Source: an uncultured Anaerolineae bacterium (GTDB taxonomy: Bacteria > Chloroflexota > Anaerolineae > Anaerolineales > Villigracilaceae). From it: a stretch of DNA of 13,156 nucleotides. The DNA is taken from positions 1 through 13,156 of the forward strand of contig CAINXK010000275.1 of assembly GCA_903854805.1 (NCBI GenBank), read 5' to 3'. Positions within the stretch are counted from its first letter, which is position 1; each line of letters begins with the position of its first letter. The notes beneath the pieces were generated by a model that was given only the letters and a program-made list of their open reading frames with translations, was not told the DNA's origin and ran no database searches. A program made the translations under genes and the position numbers. Below, one piece after another: positions 7,675 to 13,156 of the stretch.

Positions 7675-7703
7675 TGTGGGGAGAAACTACGTTTCTCCCC
7701 ACA
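7675..7703. repeat. 13-bp perfect hairpin in the 3' flank of the NACHT target gene
   Basis: TGTGGGGAGAAAC (7675-7687) and GTTTCTCCCCACA (7691-7703) are perfect inverted arms around a three-base loop, 83 bases past the target-gene stop. A matching hairpin with different stem bases lies at 12213-12237 behind the other target gene, 81 bases past its stop. No T-run follows directly on the minus strand, though TTATTTTTG appears about 20 bases on. It may act as a terminator or as a DGR target-side structure. Confidence 0.8.
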
Positions 7704-7785
7704 CCCCTCTTCCTACAGAAAACCAGCACTGCAGAAAGCAGAATTCAGCAGACAGAACACAGAAATATCCCCTTCGGGGCTGATA
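7704..7785. repeat. Homologous 3' flank shared by both DGR target genes, copy 1
   Basis: From AGAAAACCAGCACTGCAGAA through ACAGAAATATCC this stretch aligns with 12238-12317 behind the other target, with scattered differences. Together with the VR and the two hairpins it makes a duplicated 3' cassette of about 230 bp. It is rich in CAGAA-like words but has no regular unit. Confidence 0.75.
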
Positions 7786-7786
7786 T
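7765..7786. promoter_or_regulatory. Putative DGR target hairpin just downstream of VR1
   Basis: ATATC-CCC (7765-7772) pairs with GGG (7777-7779) and, past a two-base bulge, GATAT (7782-7786), leaving a TTCG tetraloop on the plus strand. It lies about 11 bases after the 3' end of VR1. In the Bordetella phage DGR a hairpin/cruciform close behind the VR promotes retrohoming; this placement and size agree. The TR lacks such a structure, as expected for a target-only signal. Confidence 0.55.
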
Positions 7787-10362
7787 CAAAGCCCAGGGGA
7801 AACTAACCGAAAACCGATAAGGTTGCCGAAGTACTCGGGGTCGTACCAGTCGCGGTAGGCACAGCGCGCAAAGCTACGAGTGTAGTCCCACGAACCGCCG
7901 CGCACGACACGGTAGACCTGCGCTTTTTCATACCAGGAAGTAGTCCACTCCCAAACATTACCTGACAAGTCGCAAATACCATCGGGCGTACTGCCTTCCG
8001 CAAACTGTCCAACCACGGTAGTCCCTGCTTCCGGTAGATCAAAAGCGTAACTTGCATTATCATCCTGCTTCCAGAATGGCGCAGCATTCAGCTTGTTTCG
8101 ATCAAACGTATCCCCCCAGGCAAATTCCCGGCCAGCCGCTCCCCTGGCAGCGCGCTCCCATTCTTGTTCAGCCGGCAGGCGCACTGTTTTGCCCAACTGC
8201 TGCGAGAGCCAGCCAGCATAGGCTTCGGCTTCGAACCAGGAAATGCCCACCAGCGGGGCAAGCGGGTTATTCCATTTCTCGTCATGCCAGAAGAATGGCT
8301 CACCGCGTTTCTCAGGCGGGCGCTGCGCCAGCCACTTTTTTGTATCATCATCTGCCCTGGTATCATAGGTCCCCATGCGCCAGGCCCAACCGTCCTCGCT
8401 CCAAAATTCCGGGCGCCCATAGCCTTTATCATGGACAAAACGCCGGAACTGCAAGTTGGTGACCGGAAACTTCTGGATGGCAAAGGGAGTTTTAATGGTT
8501 TCCTTACGTTTCTCATCGCCATACAGAAACTCCCCCGCGGGAATATTTACCCAGTCATCCAGGTCCGCTGGAACCCAACCTGTGCGCGCCAGTGAAAAGC
8601 CTGCAGCGTGCTGCAGGGCAGGCGTCAGCGAGCGGTTGCGGCTGGCGGTCAGCAGGGCAGCCTGGATCTCGTGCGCGGCAACCTGGCCCAGCCCGGTGGG
8701 GCCGACATCTTCCAGGCAAGCCCCAGCCATTAGCAGGTTCTTGCCGGTATTTTCGCCAGCACAGTTCATACTGAGCATGGCGCGCACCACCTCACCCGCT
8801 ACCCGCGGCTGGCGATTGATCAGCCCTATAACTCCGACGCTCAACAGGATGGTTTCGCGCCAGACGGGGTCGACGAGATATTTCTGGATATAAGCCAGGC
8901 TTTTCTGCCGGTCAACCTGCCCGGCGGCCACCAGGCCAAAAGCAGCCAGGGCCTCTTCGAAAGTCAGGTGAATAAAACCGAACTGGCCTTCGCCGCGCTC
9001 CAGCAGCAGGTTGGAAAAACGCCGCACGCTGTCCAGAAATTCACACGCTTTTACACGGGCTGGGCCGGGTTTTAGACCCCACTGTTCTCCGGTAAAATGA
9101 TCGGTCAACCAATCCTGCAGCTGGCGTGCACTCACCAACCCAGCGGTCGGGTTCTCTTCGCGCAGACGCAAAGCCAGCGGGCCTAACACTTCCAGGGTGG
9201 TTTCGTAATCGAGCGACTCGCGCCCGGCGCTTCTATCCAGCGCGCTGGCGCGGTTCCAGGCCTCAATCAGGGTTTCAAGATAGCGGTCATAGAGCTTAAT
9301 CCGGCTTTTGGGAAGTTCCACACCCTGGCGCTTGATCAAAGCCAGGATGGTCAGCAGCAATGGATTGGAGGCCAGTTGAGCTACACCAGGGTTGGCCTGA
9401 ATGGCATTGAGCAAGCTGATGCGCTCGGTCTCAGCAGAGGCGGCAGCCTCGGGGGTGTTTCCCAGCGTACTTATTTCAAAGGCCAGGCACCATTTTTTTG
9501 CGAATAATTCGATCGCATCCGGGGTGAAATCCATCAGCGTATACAGAACCCAATCTTTTGGGGCCAACGGGGCATCACGATAGCCAACGATCCGGCTGGT
9601 AACCGCCACGCGGTTACCGAACGCAATCACCTCATGGGTGAAATCTTCGACCTTTTGCGCCAGCGCAGCGCGGTTGATCTGGACTTCATCCAGGCCATCC
9701 AGCAAGAAGATGGCTTTACCACTGGTCAGGGCTTCCTTGAACAGCGGCCCAAGCGCAGCCAACCCTTCTGCGCGACCGGCGAAATATTCCCCAAGATAAC
9801 TTTGCAGGTTGATATCCTTTTTGGAAAGGGCTTTGGCATACGCATTCAAAGGCAGCAGGATGGGCAGGGGCGCGTTTTCATCTTTAGCCAGGCGCAAGGC
9901 CAGGTATTTGAGCATGGTCGATTTGCCTGAGCCAGGATCGCCCAATACAACAATGCGTTTTTTCTCGCGCAGGGCCGTTTCGATCTGCACCGGGGCGGAA
10001 ATTTCGCCGGCCCCCTGGCTTAGCAAAACAGCTTCGGGCAGCATGGCCGGGTCGAAGACGCGCCCGGCATGCCGGCGTTCCCACGTATCCCCTGCGGGCA
10101 TTTCAGGGCGAGCCATGAGCGGCACGTAGACTTCCTCGAGCGCGAGCTCATTTGCCATGCCGCGTAACTGCGGGATACCCTTGAAATCGAGAGCATGGTA
10201 AGTGCGTTCAATATGCGCCAGGTAGTCCAGGCGCAGTTGAGCCAGGTCTAGCGGCGGGATGAACGCGCCCATCGTGCTGATCAGAAGGACATACTGGTCG
10301 CCCATGATGATGTCGCGACCAGATTTGGGTTCAATGATTTCATATTTTTTATTTGCACACAT
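7786..10362 (-). CDS. NACHT NTPase fused to an FGE-sulfatase/C-type-lectin-fold domain; DGR target 1 (858 aa)
   Basis: Residues 1-110 have no enzymatic domain that I recognise but hold the VYVPL linker common before NACHT domains. The NTPase has Walker A GDPGSGKST (141-149), Walker B with extended acid run LLDGLDE (220-226), and VTSRIVGYR (254-262). It ends with the FIHLTFEEALAAF helix-turn typical of NACHT proteins. Residues ~604 to 858 form a formylglycine-generating-enzyme-type fold: WVNIPAGEFLYG, FPVTNLQFRRF, ISWFEAEAYAGWL, VRLPAEQEWERAARG, GNVWEWT. Its last segment from RGGSW to IGFRLV is VR1. The paired catalytic cysteines of true FGE enzymes are not seen there, so ligand binding is likelier than catalysis. 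The start at 10362 has GGAG six bases upstream; a TTG at 10374 is an alternative. Likely an NTP-switched sensor whose binding face is rewritten by the DGR; the response it triggers is unknown. Confidence 0.93.
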   Translation of the reverse strand: MCANKKYEIIEPKSGRDIIMGDQYVLLISTMGAFIPPLDLAQLRLDYLAHIERTYHALDFKGIPQLRGMANELALEEVYVPLMARPEMPAGDTWERRHAGRVFDPAMLPEAVLLSQGAGEISAPVQIETALREKKRIVVLGDPGSGKSTMLKYLALRLAKDENAPLPILLPLNAYAKALSKKDINLQSYLGEYFAGRAEGLAALGPLFKEALTSGKAIFLLDGLDEVQINRAALAQKVEDFTHEVIAFGNRVAVTSRIVGYRDAPLAPKDWVLYTLMDFTPDAIELFAKKWCLAFEISTLGNTPEAAASAETERISLLNAIQANPGVAQLASNPLLLTILALIKRQGVELPKSRIKLYDRYLETLIEAWNRASALDRSAGRESLDYETTLEVLGPLALRLREENPTAGLVSARQLQDWLTDHFTGEQWGLKPGPARVKACEFLDSVRRFSNLLLERGEGQFGFIHLTFEEALAAFGLVAAGQVDRQKSLAYIQKYLVDPVWRETILLSVGVIGLINRQPRVAGEVVRAMLSMNCAGENTGKNLLMAGACLEDVGPTGLGQVAAHEIQAALLTASRNRSLTPALQHAAGFSLARTGWVPADLDDWVNIPAGEFLYGDEKRKETIKTPFAIQKFPVTNLQFRRFVHDKGYGRPEFWSEDGWAWRMGTYDTRADDDTKKWLAQRPPEKRGEPFFWHDEKWNNPLAPLVGISWFEAEAYAGWLSQQLGKTVRLPAEQEWERAARGAAGREFAWGDTFDRNKLNAAPFWKQDDNASYAFDLPEAGTTVVGQFAEGSTPDGICDLSGNVWEWTTSWYEKAQVYRVVRGGSWDYTRSFARCAYRDWYDPEYFGNLIGFRLVSPGL
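7797..7907 (-). repeat. DGR variable repeat VR1
   Basis: This 111-bp segment aligns without gaps to the TR at 10580-10690. Seventeen positions differ, and 15 of these are adenines of the TR coding strand (29 adenines in all). The two exceptions are at 7834 and 7894. It encodes the C-terminal lectin-fold segment of target 1, between RGGSW and LVS. Changed codons give D-Y, R, S-F, D-W-Y-D, E-Y, G and L where the TR would give mostly Asn. The end nearest the stop (ATCGGTTTTCGGTTAG on the coding strand) is unchanged and is the likely initiation-of-mutagenic-homology region. Confidence 0.95.
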
Positions 10363-10372
10363 AGGGGTCTCC

Positions 10373-10440
10373 AAAAAAAGCGGCCTGCCTCAACCTTCAT
10401 TCTGTCCTAATCTCGGCGAAATTACCAGAGGAGGCAGACC
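10373..10440 (-). terminator. Branched spacer hairpin followed by T7
   Basis: On the minus strand GGTCTGCCTC (10440-10431) pairs with GAGGCAGGCC (10391-10382), counting one G-U, then GC and seven Ts (10379-10373). Inside the 39-base loop, TAATTTC and GAGATTA (10424-10418 with 10414-10408) form a 7-bp stem around a GCC loop, and CTG/CAG can pair just outside it. This would end the DGR RNA. Oddly, the T7 runs straight into the GGAG ribosome site of target 1. Confidence 0.6.
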
Positions 10441-10579
10441 TTGGGCAATATTTGGCACCCCGTCTGCTTTTGCAGCAACCAAAAGAGACCGGATACCAGG
10501 AACAGGCGGCGCTGGCTCTAATATCAGGGCCTCGCCTGGCTTGCAGCACAGGCTTTGCCGGCCAAAAAATGAGATTCAT

Positions 10580-10690
10580 GGGAAACTAACCGAAAACCGA
10601 TATTGTTGTTGAAGTTATCGGGGTTGTTCCTGTTGCGGTAGGCACAGCGCGCATTGTTATGAGTGTTGTTCCACGAGCCGCCGCGCACGA
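10580..10690 (-). repeat. DGR template repeat TR
   Basis: On the minus strand this non-coding copy reads as the end of an FGE-fold protein ([17 protein letters not shown], then [18 protein letters not shown]), full of AAC/AAT codons, the usual DGR choice because adenine mutagenesis of them gives many residues and no stop codons. It is not in frame with any start; after LVS it continues unlike the targets. Both VRs differ from it mainly at adenines. Its first 34 bases overlap the 3' end of avd. Confidence 0.96.
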
Positions 10691-11076
10691 ATCCACCTGT
10701 CCCTCCGTAAATGTCTTACCCAGGCTTGACGCTTGCGCAAGACGGAACGGCTTTTTTTGATCCAACCACCGAGTAAATTGCCCATTTCTGTCAGCAGACC
10801 GGCAGCGTGTTGGTATTGTCCGGGTTCAAGCAAGTCCATTTCCAGACATAAACGCACATGTGTGCGGATTTTATCCAGTTCGGCATCAGCATCTGTCAGC
10901 CGCTCATCCGGATCGGGCTTGTGGGCGGCTTCGATGATCAATTCTTGAAAATGCAGCGATTCGTGCTGCAAAGCAGCTGCCATCACAAAGCGTTGGTAGC
11001 GCGGGAATTTGACCGTTACTGGAATGACCCAAGCTACAAAATCGTAGGTTTTGCTAAAAAGTGGTGATTGCTTCAT
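10657..11076 (-). CDS. avd: DGR accessory variability determinant-like protein (139 aa)
   Basis: The protein is small, predicted all-helical and basic at its end, as expected for Avd, the pentameric four-helix-bundle partner of DGR reverse transcriptases that binds the template RNA. Helical segments include [20 protein letters not shown], then [37 protein letters not shown] and a long [20 protein letters not shown]. The last ~30 residues carry about 14 Arg/Lys. The start at 11076 overlaps the RT stop as ATGA and has AGGAA six bases upstream; an earlier ATG at 11091 would overlap RT more and lacks this site. Identification rests mainly on position between RT and TR, size and composition. The stop lies 34 bases inside the TR, so the final 11 or so residues are encoded by TR sequence in another frame from the target protein. 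Confidence 0.8.
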
Positions 11077-12167
11077 GCGATTTCCTGCCATTCCTGGTAT
11101 TTTCCTTGATGTGATGGAAGGATGGAAGCTGACAACAAGCTCCTGCGCAGGCCCCAGGTGTTACCATGCCGTGCATGGGCCACCCAACCCTGAACGCTGG
11201 CATCAAGCCGCTCGAAGCTGATCTTGCCATCGGCATAATCACGGCGCATTTCTGCATAGCGGCGCTGAAAAGCCAGCCCGTTGCGTTTACGCAGCAGGCG
11301 ATGGTGTGGGTAGAGCCTCCAGCCCAAAAATGGGATGCCAGTTTCTACAGGGAAAACCTGGGCTTCATTTTCGTGCAGGGTCAGACGCAGGGAAGCCAGA
11401 TACTCGATAATTGCGGCGCGCCAATGATGCAGGTCAGCCTTGCTGTTTGAAAAAAGCAGGAAATCGTCAACATAGCGGCAATAGGCCAGGCATTTCAACT
11501 CACGCTTGATGAAGTGATCGAGCGGGTTCAAATACACATTGGCCCAAAACTGTGAGGTCAGATTACCAATCGGCAGTCCACGCGGCCGAATTGCTGCAAA
11601 CAGATCATCGCCGGGGAAAAAGGCGGGCGGAATACCCTGGTGGATCGCCGCACCGCTTTCTAAAATCAGCCGGCACAGGCGCAGTGTTTGTGGGTCGGCC
11701 AGCCGGTGTGAAAGCTGCCCAAAGAGAATCTGATGATCAATGTGTGGAAAGAAATGTTCGATATCGCATTTGAGCACATAGGCATAATTCTGGCTGAACG
11801 CCTGGGCACGGTCCAGGGCGGCATGCGTTCCCTTGCCCTTGCGGTTGGCATAGCTGTCATAGATGAAACCACGCTCTAAAAGAGGCTCGATCAGGTTGCA
11901 CAAAGCATGATGCACAACCCGGTCACGGAAGGGAGCGGCGGAGATCAGGCGCGGTTTGGGGTCGGTGATATTGAAATTGTGATAACGTCCTGGGCGGTAA
12001 GTTTCGGTTTGCAGAGAGTTTTGCAGCTTTAGCAAATTGGTCTCCAGATCAAATTCGAAACTTGCCACATTCGGATGCGAACGCTTGCCGCGGCGTGCCT
12101 TGTAGAAAGCCAGCAGAAGGTTATCGAAGCTGGCAATTTGGAGATAGAGATGCTTGAATGTTTTCAT
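11073..12167 (-). CDS. Diversity-generating retroelement reverse transcriptase (364 aa)
   Basis: The enzyme copies TR RNA into cDNA with frequent errors opposite adenines. Fingers and palm motifs are in order: RLISAAPFRDRVVHHALCNL (motif 1-2 area, 73-92), the first catalytic Asp in LKCDIEHFF (D135), LPIGNLTSQFWANVYLN (198-214) and the catalytic YVDD (232-235), then FLGWRLYPHH (280-289). The SQ in IGNLTSQ, where retrovirus and group II intron enzymes have (Q)GxxxSP, is a DGR hallmark. The tail GWVAHARHGNTWGLR matches other DGR enzymes. No maturase (X) or endonuclease domain is present, and the length is normal for DGRs. The start at 12167 has only a distant AAGGA about 12 bases upstream, so initiation may be modest. 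It overlaps avd by four bases, implying translational coupling. Confidence 0.95.
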   Translation of the reverse strand: MKTFKHLYLQIASFDNLLLAFYKARRGKRSHPNVASFEFDLETNLLKLQNSLQTETYRPGRYHNFNITDPKPRLISAAPFRDRVVHHALCNLIEPLLERGFIYDSYANRKGKGTHAALDRAQAFSQNYAYVLKCDIEHFFPHIDHQILFGQLSHRLADPQTLRLCRLILESGAAIHQGIPPAFFPGDDLFAAIRPRGLPIGNLTSQFWANVYLNPLDHFIKRELKCLAYCRYVDDFLLFSNSKADLHHWRAAIIEYLASLRLTLHENEAQVFPVETGIPFLGWRLYPHHRLLRKRNGLAFQRRYAEMRRDYADGKISFERLDASVQGWVAHARHGNTWGLRRSLLSASILPSHQGKYQEWQEIA

Positions 12168-12212
12168 GCGATCTGTTCATCCTTTCCAAAGTCCGAAAAA
12201 TTCGCTTAACCC

Positions 12213-12237
12213 GCAGGGGGAACGTCGTTCCCCCTGC
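12213..12237. repeat. 11-bp perfect hairpin between target 2 and RT
   Basis: GCAGGGGGAAC (12213-12223) and GTTCCCCCTGC (12227-12237) pair perfectly around a three-base loop. The stem sequence differs from its counterpart at 7675-7703, yet pairing is complete in both and the apical AAC/GTT is kept. It lies 45 bases before the RT start and 81 bases after the target 2 stop. It may attenuate transcription into RT or serve target recognition. Confidence 0.8.
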
Positions 12238-12317
12238 AACCCCCTCCTCAGAAAACCAGCACTGCAGAAGGCAGCATCCAGAAAACAGAAAACAGAAATA
12301 TCCCTGTGGGACTGATA
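12238..12317. repeat. Homologous 3' flank shared by both DGR target genes, copy 2
   Basis: This aligns with 7704-7785, including AGAAAACCAGCACTGCAGAA and ACAGAAATATCC. The differences are scattered and not confined to adenines, so ordinary drift after duplication explains them. Confidence 0.75.
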
Positions 12318-12318
12318 T
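12298..12318. promoter_or_regulatory. Putative DGR target hairpin just downstream of VR2
   Basis: ATATC-CC (12298-12304) can pair with GG (12309-12310) and, past a bulge, GATAT (12314-12318); alternatively TCCC pairs with GGGA (12301-12304 with 12308-12311). It occupies the same place as the hairpin behind VR1, and the inner stem has changed on both sides. Confidence 0.45.
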
Positions 12319-13156
12319 TAGAGCCCAGGGGAAACTAACCGAAAACCGATACTGCCGCTGAAGTACTCGGGGAGGTTCCTGAAGCGGGCGGCACAGCGCG
12401 CATTGTCATGAGTGCCGTACCACGAGCCGCCGCGCACGACACGCTCCCCATCCGCTTCGGCAACTTCACTTTTGCCCTGCTCATAAGGATAGGGTAGATA
12501 CAGGCTGCTGGTCCAGTTATACACATTGCCAGCCTGGTCTTCCGCGCCATACGGACCCAGCGCACCTGCGCAGGCATAGGCACCGACCGGCGTGGGTTTC
12601 AAGACACGTCCTTCAAGGCTGTTGGCTTTAACAAGGTCCCAGGCATCACCCCAGGGATAAAACCTGGCAGCCTGCCCACGCGCAGCAGCCTCCCACTGAA
12701 TCTCAGAAGGCAAACGAAATTCTTTACAAGTAACAGCCGAGAGCCAGGCGCAGTATGCCTGAGCTTCAAACCAGGTTATCGCGACCACGGGTTGAGATGG
12801 ATTGTTGTACTGGGCGTCGTTCCATTTATCTGGCTGGGTGCGGGATTTTTCCGAAAGCTGTTTTCCGAGCCACGCTTTCAGTTCTACTTCGCTCATTTTT
12901 GCAATCCGAACCCATGCTTCTACTGCGGATGGCGTGAAATTCCCGTTTTCTTCCAGCGCTTTGCGGACATCGGGCCAGGTCTGCAGTGTTTTCCAGTTTT
13001 CCAAATATTTCTTGAACTGCCCGCCAGCCACATCTTCGCCCTGGAGCCAACGCATTGCCAACTCTGTCTGCCAATAGCGTTTATCCTGGTAACCACCGGC
13101 AGCCATAAAACAGGCATATTCGGCATTGGTCACCGGCCATTTGCCAATGGAAAAGG
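12318..13156 (-). CDS. FGE-sulfatase/C-type-lectin-fold protein, DGR target 2 (5' end beyond window)
   Basis: The reading frame is open to the window edge: the residues before VTNAEYACF are FSIGKWP, the normal start of the FGE repeat, so an internal GTG at 13133 is not the true start. The visible 279 codons contain VVAITWFEAQAYCAWLS, FRLPSEIQWEAAARGQAA, FYPWGDAW, YGAEDQAGNVYNWT and VVRGGSW, ending with VR2 and SPGL. Compared with target 1 there is an extra, mostly helical stretch of about 55 residues (roughly YLENWKTLQTWPDVRKALEE through KQLSEKSRT) before WNDAQYNNP. Whether a NACHT or other signalling domain lies upstream cannot be seen. The catalytic cysteine pair of true FGEs is not seen in the VR, so a ligand-binding role is likelier. 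It is first in the DGR order, about 150 bases before RT. Confidence 0.93.
   Translation of the reverse strand, partial: FSIGKWPVTNAEYACFMAAGGYQDKRYWQTELAMRWLQGEDVAGGQFKKYLENWKTLQTWPDVRKALEENGNFTPSAVEAWVRIAKMSEVELKAWLGKQLSEKSRTQPDKWNDAQYNNPSQPVVAITWFEAQAYCAWLSAVTCKEFRLPSEIQWEAAARGQAARFYPWGDAWDLVKANSLEGRVLKPTPVGAYACAGALGPYGAEDQAGNVYNWTSSLYLPYPYEQGKSEVAEADGERVVRGGSWYGTHDNARCAARFRNLPEYFSGSIGFRLVSPGL
12329..12439 (-). repeat. DGR variable repeat VR2
   Basis: This 111-bp segment aligns without gaps to TR 10580-10690, with 16 differences: 14 at coding-strand adenines and two elsewhere (12366 and 12389). The resulting residues include Y-G, D, A, F, L, E-Y, S-G and S at positions that are mostly Asn in the TR frame. 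Its changes differ from those of VR1 at most sites, which indicates separate mutagenic events. Confidence 0.95.

Follow-up and report, generated by a model that had tools for sequence, protein, structure and literature searches.

The window, that is, the whole 13,156-nucleotide stretch of DNA that was analyzed, was annotated as carrying on its minus strand genes for a reverse transcriptase (RT) and Avd, a template repeat (TR), two VRs, and two FGE targets. The RT, Avd, TR, and two VRs together constitute a diversity-generating retroelement (DGR), which is probably located on the chromosome of an Anaerolineae-like bacterium. The features are as follows.

7675 to 7703, minus strand: G-run hairpin after the VR1 array, 13 bp with a 3-nt loop
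7716 to 7764, minus strand: heptad array after VR1, 7 YTG units spaced 7, 7, 7, 7, 8, and 8, with one extra YTG between two units
7786 to 10362, minus strand: target 1, NACHT (STAND) NTPase with a C-terminal FGE/C-type-lectin region (Pfam)
7797 to 7907, minus strand: VR1, 15 of 29 TR adenines changed (scripted alignment to the TR)
7801 to 8562, minus strand: FGE-sulfatase domain of target 1, residues 605 to 858 of the 862-aa frame (Pfam)
9490 to 9957, minus strand: NACHT domain of target 1, residues 140 to 295 of the 862-aa frame (Pfam)
10580 to 10690, minus strand: TR (repeat search and scripted alignment)
10657 to 11091, minus strand: avd, 3' end overlapping the TR by 34 nt (NF033474 and Pfam bAvd)
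11073 to 12167, minus strand: DGR reverse transcriptase of 364 aa with GNLTSQ and YVDD motifs (family and PDB sequence matches)
12213 to 12237, minus strand: G-run hairpin after the VR2 array, 11 bp with a 3-nt loop
12249 to 12297, minus strand: heptad array after VR2, 7 YTG units spaced 7, 7, 7, 7, 8, and 8
12318 to 13154, minus strand: target 2, protein with an FGE domain (Pfam FGE, 143.3 bits), 278 visible aa, truncated at its 5' end by the window edge
12329 to 12439, minus strand: VR2, 14 of 29 TR adenines changed (scripted alignment to the TR)

A preliminary description of this DNA had placed a complete two-target DGR at positions 7786 to 13156. The RT, Avd, TR, and VRs are complete and lie inside that interval; the target 2 gene is open at the window edge, and the VR1 array and hairpin (7675 to 7764) fall outside. 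That description was silent on the module 3' of each VR and on the combination of NACHT and FGE domains in target 1.

The SQ motif and YVDD attributed to the RT were located as GNLTSQ at 201 and YVDD at 232; the SQ motif is a mark of DGR-type RTs. The best PDB sequence match was a reverse transcriptase (8ub7; 1e-51), and the RT aligned with Brt of BPP-1 at 37% identity. No relative was found when the RT was used as a single-protein query against viral contigs. Avd matched NCBIfam family NF033474 at 97.5 bits (cutoff, 80), and an Rfam search of the window at gathering scores returned no family.

The program alignment of the TR, VR1, and VR2 that had been called for was run and reproduced all of the counts claimed. 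Both VRs aligned to the TR without gaps, with changes at 15/29 (VR1) and 14/29 (VR2) adenine sites and at 2/82 other bases in each, and 22 of the 29 TR adenines varied in at least one VR. The VRs also carried different changes: a comparison of VR1 with VR2 gave 22 differing sites, and of these, 20 were TR adenines. The bias toward adenines over other bases was significant (Fisher test, P = 5.8e-9 for VR1 and 3.2e-8 for VR2), and a repeat search independently recovered the same three copies. Three similar copies in one locus might also be expected from ordinary duplication and divergence, an origin that is excluded by the adenine-only bias (P < 1e-7 per VR). The DGR interpretation held, with every named part present and an adenine-specific pattern far beyond chance.

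In the TR, 17 codons carry an adenine at position 1 or 2, and none of them can mutate to a stop. Across 54 aligned homologous targets, these 17 codons had a mean entropy of 2.63 bits, compared with 0.52 bits for the 19 other VR codons, 1.11 bits for the rest of the FGE domain, and 0.92 bits for residues 1 to 604. Past or recent activity is supported by these stop-proof and variable codons, as well as by the small number of nonadenine differences and the different adenine changes in the two VRs, and the system is probably active or recently active, as had been proposed. The two VRs together show four nonadenine differences from the TR, which could instead point to a decayed or silent DGR, but the visible reading frames are open, the catalytic motifs are present, and the differences between VR1 and VR2 fall nearly all at TR adenines, which makes decay improbable.

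Target 1 is 858 aa long from an ATG at 10362 or 862 aa long from a TTG at 10374, and its NACHT and FGE-sulfatase domains scored 29.8 bits (Pfam cutoff, 26.7) and 168.9 bits, respectively. The two targets shared 35% identity in an alignment of 291 columns. By sequence profile, both VRs are covered by the FGE-sulfatase domain, the C-terminal C-type-lectin region; an AlphaFold model of target 1 had a mean pLDDT of 68.5 and was too poor around the VR (residues 800 to 849, <50). Among relatives' targets, represented by one complete frame each from 47 of 62 loci including the window, the FGE domain was found in 47/47, NACHT in 33/47, and TIR_2 in 5/47 (E values up to 0.001). The NACHT protein is probably a STAND sensor with a diversified ligand-binding tip. 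No effector or partner gene adjoining target 1 was seen within the window.

The cassette itself belongs to the published STAND-NTPase DGR type, members of which are described in the text of Doré et al. (2024, PMC10907252) as putative antigen sensors with a proposed role in defense. According to the sections of that paper on clade 5D, these systems encode a NACHT or nSTAND NTPase with a diversified C-terminal FGE/CLec domain, commonly have two targets, each with a central STAND domain, and include many targets with N-terminal extensions without known domains; DGR RT clade 5 also includes filamentous Chloroflexi. The cassette is likened to clade 5D by domain architecture, with NACHT fused to a C-terminal diversified FGE/CLec in target 1 and with two targets; unlike in clade 5D systems as described there, a partner protease was not seen in this window.

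What seems new is a module outside the VRs, 3' of each target. Behind each VR, but not behind the TR, stands an array of approximately 7-nt units (core YTG, mostly TTCTG), with a G-run hairpin next to it on the far side. The array DNA was identical between the two window targets at 50/56 positions, although their FGE domains are only 35% identical. The hairpins lie approximately 92 nt 3' of the VRs, and no hairpin of at least 7 bp was found in the 180-nt flank 3' of the window TR; folding z-scores were -5.2 and -2.9 after the VRs and -0.75 after the TR.

In the literature consulted, the question of how a DGR reaches its targets while leaving the template unchanged has an experimental answer for the phage prototype. 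As presented by Guo et al. (2011, PMC3240598), the DGR of Bordetella phage BPP-1 resembles the window in having an RT, Avd, a TR, and a VR at the target 3' end, in a VR end shared with the TR, and in a GC-rich hairpin that follows the VR but is missing behind the TR. The BPP-1 hairpin has 7 to 10 bp and a 4-nt GRNA loop and lies 4 to 34 bp after the VR, whereas the window hairpins, with 11 to 13 bp, a 3-nt loop, and a distance of approximately 92 nt, are not of the BPP-1 type, and a heptad array stands here between VR and hairpin. Hairpin loops of three nucleotides and a fixed difference between IMH and IMH* are shared with the nanoarchaeal DUSEL4 DGRs (Paul et al. 2015, PMC4372165), in which, unlike here, the hairpin is inside the target gene; an array was not found in the passages of that paper on DUSEL4. 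No description of a heptad array as a target mark was found in the texts searched, with terms that varied from paper to paper; besides the papers cited here, these were PMC5006420, PMC7517822, PMC3521204, PMC8867640, PMC12875486, PMC10053308 (in which no term occurred), PMC8144416, and PMC7159879. The main text of PMC10907252 does not mention hairpin, cruciform, heptamer, or TCTG.

The module was then counted across relatives. A loose TR/VR scan gave adenine-template matches in 65/81 loci and cytosine-template control matches in 27, this control covering the loose scan only; the loci counted were those that passed a stricter filter for adenine over other bases (62 loci including the window). 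Array counts covered 62 loci and 77 VRs, and hairpin counts covered 60 loci and 75 VRs with 180 nt of flank. One locus in which TR and VR were not distinguishable (L069) was left out of the flank counts, and a short one (L020) was left out of the hairpin count. At least two TCTG motifs spaced 6 to 9 nt apart were present in 67/77 VR flanks, 0/62 TR flanks, and 1.6% of shuffles, and at least three in 46/77, 0/62, and 0.03%, respectively. Within 105 nt of the stop codon, at least two spaced TCTG motifs followed 55/70 VR genes and 11/716 other genes. The array was first spotted by eye in the same set in which it was later counted; in previously unused hold-out loci, it followed 22/28 FGE genes versus 4/174 others (Fisher test, P = 3.5e-20). 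With no motif preset, the autocorrelation of VR flanks peaked at lag 7 and that of TR flanks was flat. Hairpins of at least 7 bp were found in 42/75 VR flanks, 12/75 TR flanks, and 5% of shuffles, as well as after 24/28 hold-out FGE genes versus 34/174 other gene ends, and the VR zones (14.3 kb) contained 28 G-run hairpins, compared with 6 in the remaining 809 kb.

Two spaced TCTG motifs were lacking at 10/77 VRs and at 6/28 hold-out FGE genes. The array also flagged FGE genes at three loci (L001, L003, and L047) where neither TR/VR scan gave a convincing pair. In the cultured nonpathogen Levilinea saccharolytica KIBI-1, TCTG repeats follow the VR at loci L022 and L079, the array at L022 being less regular. 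BPP-1-like viral DGRs were without the array (lag-7 value of 0.261 versus 0.244 expected; 61 VRs), and the array is therefore dispensable for some DGRs. Cyanobacterial VR flanks showed a 7- to 8-nt period with CCTTTA-like units.

The array could be a simple-sequence heptamer repeat, generic in these genomes, that by chance lies in the intergenic DNA behind the targets. TCTG heptamer arrays occurred in 14/18 relatives' genomes, with tens in some, and a reversed control pattern was equally common or commoner in some of these genomes; of 29 fetched array loci examined, 7 (5 distinct places) lay behind FGE/VR genes. Short intergenic arrays of 7-nt units are likewise described for Beggiatoaceae and cyanobacteria in the main text of MacGregor (2015, PMC4679880), which contains neither "retroelement" nor "reverse transcriptase"; those TAACTGA repeats have another core and, in the Maribeggiatoa genome, stand mostly before start codons. 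Such an origin is nevertheless unlikely given the counts at TR flanks, at other gene ends, and in the hold-out loci, the spacing kept in both window copies, and three metagenome bins, possibly mixtures, that each hold one T-core and one C-core DGR, so that the core differs with DGR type and not with genome.

Whether the core carried T or C largely tracked the RT lineage, with three changes among 55 labeled loci on a quick RT tree with one support value. The exceptions were L010 (a T-core locus with an unresolved basal position in a mostly C group) and L078 (three C and two T, inside a T group), in which the core did not clearly go with RT lineage rather than gene order. The core at first correlated with gene order, a link for which the tree yields only three independent pairs, too small a number to test it; in L024, L035, and L053, the core went with RT lineage rather than order. 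Pairing of TR-flank RNA with array DNA was not supported, as CAGAA/CAGAG counts near the TR did not follow the core (0.72/0.21 in T loci and 0.55/0.35 in C loci). The agreement between core and RT could reflect mere inheritance of the whole cassette.

Hairpins at gene ends often serve termination, stability, or translation of mRNA. The module lies directly past the stop codon in transcript orientation and might, together with its array, serve the target mRNA in these ways rather than homing. This role also appears unlikely: there is no T-run behind either window hairpin, the array is rare at other gene ends, where hairpins are also less frequent, the core largely tracks RT lineage, and BPP-1 homing, as reported in PMC3240598, requires the hairpin after the VR.

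In the proposed mechanism, an RT-Avd complex would copy TR RNA, making errors at adenines, and its cDNA would replace VR1 in the NACHT-FGE protein and VR2 in the second FGE protein, altering up to 17 residues of the lectin-like C-terminal domain without creating a stop codon. The 3' module of both targets, running from the VR end through the heptad array to the G-run triloop hairpin and absent from the TR, would act as an address that steers homing to the targets and not to the TR, with the RT or its partner as the putative reader. This explanation as a whole, comprising DGR copying with adenine errors, a probable NACHT sensor, and a proposed 3' address module, is given a probability of roughly 0.85. 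The more general proposal, that array and hairpin, with a core matched to the RT lineage, mark the targets of cellular DGRs in this lineage and so decide which genes are rewritten, is tentative, at slightly under even odds; other lineages may have different cores.

The cassette adds a two-target, Anaerolineae-like case with a diversified NACHT protein. If the array is an address, target finding would become testable in cellular DGRs whose diversified targets are putative immune sensors, and the array would provide both a sequence tag for target genes whose TR is missing or distant and a handle for directed, targeted diversification.

Script comparison of the template repeat (TR) with the two variable repeats (VR1 and VR2) reproduced all TR-VR counts in the preliminary description. 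Adenine sites were changed at 15/29 positions in VR1 (Fisher, P = 5.8e-9) and 14/29 in VR2 (P = 3.2e-8), whereas either repeat was changed at 2/82 sites with other bases. Twenty-two of the 29 TR adenines were changed in at least one VR, and 20 of the 22 sites differing between VR1 and VR2 were TR adenines. Substitutions of A by G, T, and C numbered 7, 7, and 1 in VR1 and 7, 5, and 2 in VR2. The SQ and YVDD motifs claimed earlier for the reverse transcriptase (RT) were present, and the interpretation of the cassette as a diversity-generating retroelement (DGR) was supported overall and is practically certain. The gene order was target 2, RT, avd, TR, and target 1.

Genes and repeats of the cassette
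13154-12318, minus strand, target 2: FGE (lectin-like) domain; 5' part cut by the window end
12329-12439, minus strand, VR2: aligned to TR by script
12167-11073, minus strand, RT: 364 aa; GNLTSQ and YVDD
11091-10657, minus strand, avd (accessory protein): above the NF033474 cutoff
10580-10690, minus strand, TR: aligned to both VRs by script
10362-7786, minus strand, target 1: 862-aa frame with NACHT (140-295) and FGE-sulfatase (605-858)
7797-7907, minus strand, VR1: aligned to TR by script

The best PDB sequence match of the RT was 8ub7 (E = 1e-51). The 3' end of avd ran into TR, with 34 nt in common (10657-10690); such overlap was found in 4/39 avd candidates from relatives of the same gene order, window included, and was largest in the window. 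Because genes for a TetR-type regulator, acyl-CoA-dehydrogenase-like and FadB-like proteins, and a transporter follow target 1 (the last three mostly with matches under curated cutoffs), a chromosomal rather than phage location is suggested.

RT relatives among the genome contigs were mostly Chloroflexi, with best identities of 66 to 67% (L001 and L002). These two loci were absent from the RT tree, built from 72 rows by a quick method, in which the window clustered with L008 and L009 (support, 94). RT matches in several relatives' genomes (G005, G018, G075, G247, G306, and others) were reported with one internal stop codon each. Of 80 loci fetched by RT, 61 plus the window passed a strict TR/VR filter. 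Targets were scanned as one complete frame from each of 47 loci, window included, the other loci having open frames or being excluded for size. FGE was found in 47/47, NACHT in 33/47, and TIR_2 in 5/47, with kinase (2), KAP (2), caspase (1), and trypsin (1) domains rarer (E up to 0.001). Since these targets match the type described in the consulted sections of Doré et al. 2024 (PMC10907252), in which clade 5D DGRs commonly have a pair of targets containing STAND NTPase and CLec domains, the cassette belongs to an already published kind of DGR. Antigen sensing is proposed there, as a proposal only, for clade 5D targets; target 1 is probably a diversified STAND sensor.

In the VR frame, TR contains 17 codons with adenine at position 1 or 2, none convertible to a stop, allowing ~10^16 proteins. 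Across 54 aligned targets (the window and 53 of 120 listed homologs), entropy was 2.63 bits at these codons, 0.52 at the other 19 VR codons, 1.11 in the rest of FGE, and 0.92 in residues 1 to 604. This sequence pattern is the footprint expected from repeated DGR action on the target family, though it does not prove that the window's copy is active. The window's target fell in a homolog cluster of two sequences from two contigs.

In the VR flanks inspected by eye, the DNA directly 3' of the VR held an array of ~7-nt units, in most cases TTCTG with two further letters, often followed by a G-rich stretch and a hairpin. Both window targets carried such a module, and neither array nor hairpin was found in the window's TR flank.

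Post-VR modules of the window
7716-7764, minus strand, VR1 array: seven YTG units, spacing 7,7,7,7,8,8; one extra YTG
7675-7703, minus strand, VR1 hairpin: perfect, 13 bp, 3-nt loop
12249-12297, minus strand, VR2 array: seven YTG units, spacing 7,7,7,7,8,8
12213-12237, minus strand, VR2 hairpin: perfect, 11 bp, 3-nt loop

The two post-VR flanks were identical at 50/56 positions, versus 35% identity between the FGE domains, and the 300 nt upstream of VR1 and VR2 gave no ungapped match (0.26). In 62 loci (window included, L069 dropped), at least two TCTG spaced 6 to 9 nt occurred in 67/77 VR flanks, 0/62 TR flanks, and 1.6% of shuffles, and at least three in 46/77, 0/62, and 0.03%, with TCTG-to-TCTG distances of 7 nt (96 times), 8 nt (46), and 9 nt (26). 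Arrays lay within 105 nt 3' of the stop codon in 55/70 VR genes, 11/716 other genes, and 6/10 FGE-like genes without a detected VR. Motif-free autocorrelation in VR flanks peaked at lag 7 (0.391 versus 0.278 expected, n = 54; 0.364 versus 0.263, n = 23) and was flat in TR flanks (0.259 versus 0.258, n = 62). Hairpins of at least 7 bp occurred in 42/75 VR flanks, 12/75 TR flanks (rows repeating for two-target loci), 3/75 regions upstream of VR, and 5% of shuffles; those with a four-G run numbered 28 in VR zones (14.3 kb) and 6 in the remaining 809 kb.

Because the array had been spotted by eye in the same loci that gave these first counts, a hold-out of 70 new loci of this class was run (30 fetched and 40 regions chosen from the rest of the hit list). 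Twenty-eight loci with RT DNA matching the first set at ≥90% were dropped, leaving 42, and 5'-open frames were now included. Arrays followed 22/28 FGE C-terminal genes and 4/174 other genes (Fisher, P = 3.5e-20), and hairpins followed 24/28 and 34/174 (P = 1.4e-11). Visual inspection showed different YTG or TTTG units in some of the six misses.

The array might be a generic repeat of these genomes: TCTG heptamer arrays occurred in 14/18 relatives' genomes searched, with tens in some, a reversed control pattern was equal or higher in some, and 7 of 29 fetched examples examined (5 distinct places) lay behind FGE or VR genes. G001, G004, G008, G009, and G013 had 14 to 51 TCTG heptamer matches each; of those fetched and placed, most were not behind FGE genes. 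Against this, the base preceding TCTG (the core base) differed between the two DGRs of each of three metagenome bins, CFX8 (L021, T; L037, C, read from an FGE gene flank), bin-243 (L008, T; L060, C), and S1bins75 (L020, T; L019, C), which is not expected of a genome-typical repeat unless the bins are mixed.

The array was not universal, some VRs lacking it. BPP-1-like viral VRs (61, from 80 loci) had no 7-nt period (0.261 versus 0.244) but carried a short invariant sequence and an immediate hairpin, whose loop, by eye, was mostly of 4 nt (GAAA, for example). Eleven cyanobacterial VR flanks had a 7- to 8-nt period (0.436 and 0.478 versus 0.318 expected), in which CCTTTA-like units could be made out by eye; five cyanobacterial TR flanks lacked the period. 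It was seen in the cyanobacterial plasmid DGRs at L082 to L085 and L088. Among other phages and plasmids, nine flanks, including that of BPP-1, gave a weak peak (0.365 versus 0.275). Long palindromes of the AGACCTGACAGGTTT type recurred in several Chloroflexi loci (L019:11-473, L023:6994-7026, L020:9876, and others), some adjoining DGR genes. By eye, a repeated CC[AG]GAAATGC-like stretch lay ~20 to 35 nt past TR in relatives and might contribute to the structure of the template RNA.

The core base was T in 168/213 units where TR follows RT and C in 91/101 where TR precedes RT, and three changes were needed on the RT tree over 55 labeled loci. L024 and L035, of unusual gene order, shared a T core with their relatives on the RT tree; L053, of usual order, had a C core and was placed beside the C group. 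L010 (T core) lay without clear placement at the base of the largely C group; L078, with 3 C and 2 T units, was an exception. This broad agreement of core with RT suggests the RT or a partner as reader; joint inheritance of flank and cassette is a possible alternative, the three independent pairs on the RT tree being too small a number for testing.

At the first mismatch past the shared 3' end, TR had A and VR had C in 65/77 pairs (A/T in 6; 62 loci). This difference, a constant mark and not the product of chance mutation, fits the idea of a target mark lying outside the copied part. The consulted sections of PMC3240598 report that efficient BPP-1 homing needs a hairpin 3' of VR. By analogy, array and hairpin would jointly make VR acceptable as a homing target and keep TR from being one, with the RT or a partner reading the core; we put the probability that the array functions in homing at about one-half. 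The cassette itself is of a known type, and it is this cis array that merits follow-up.
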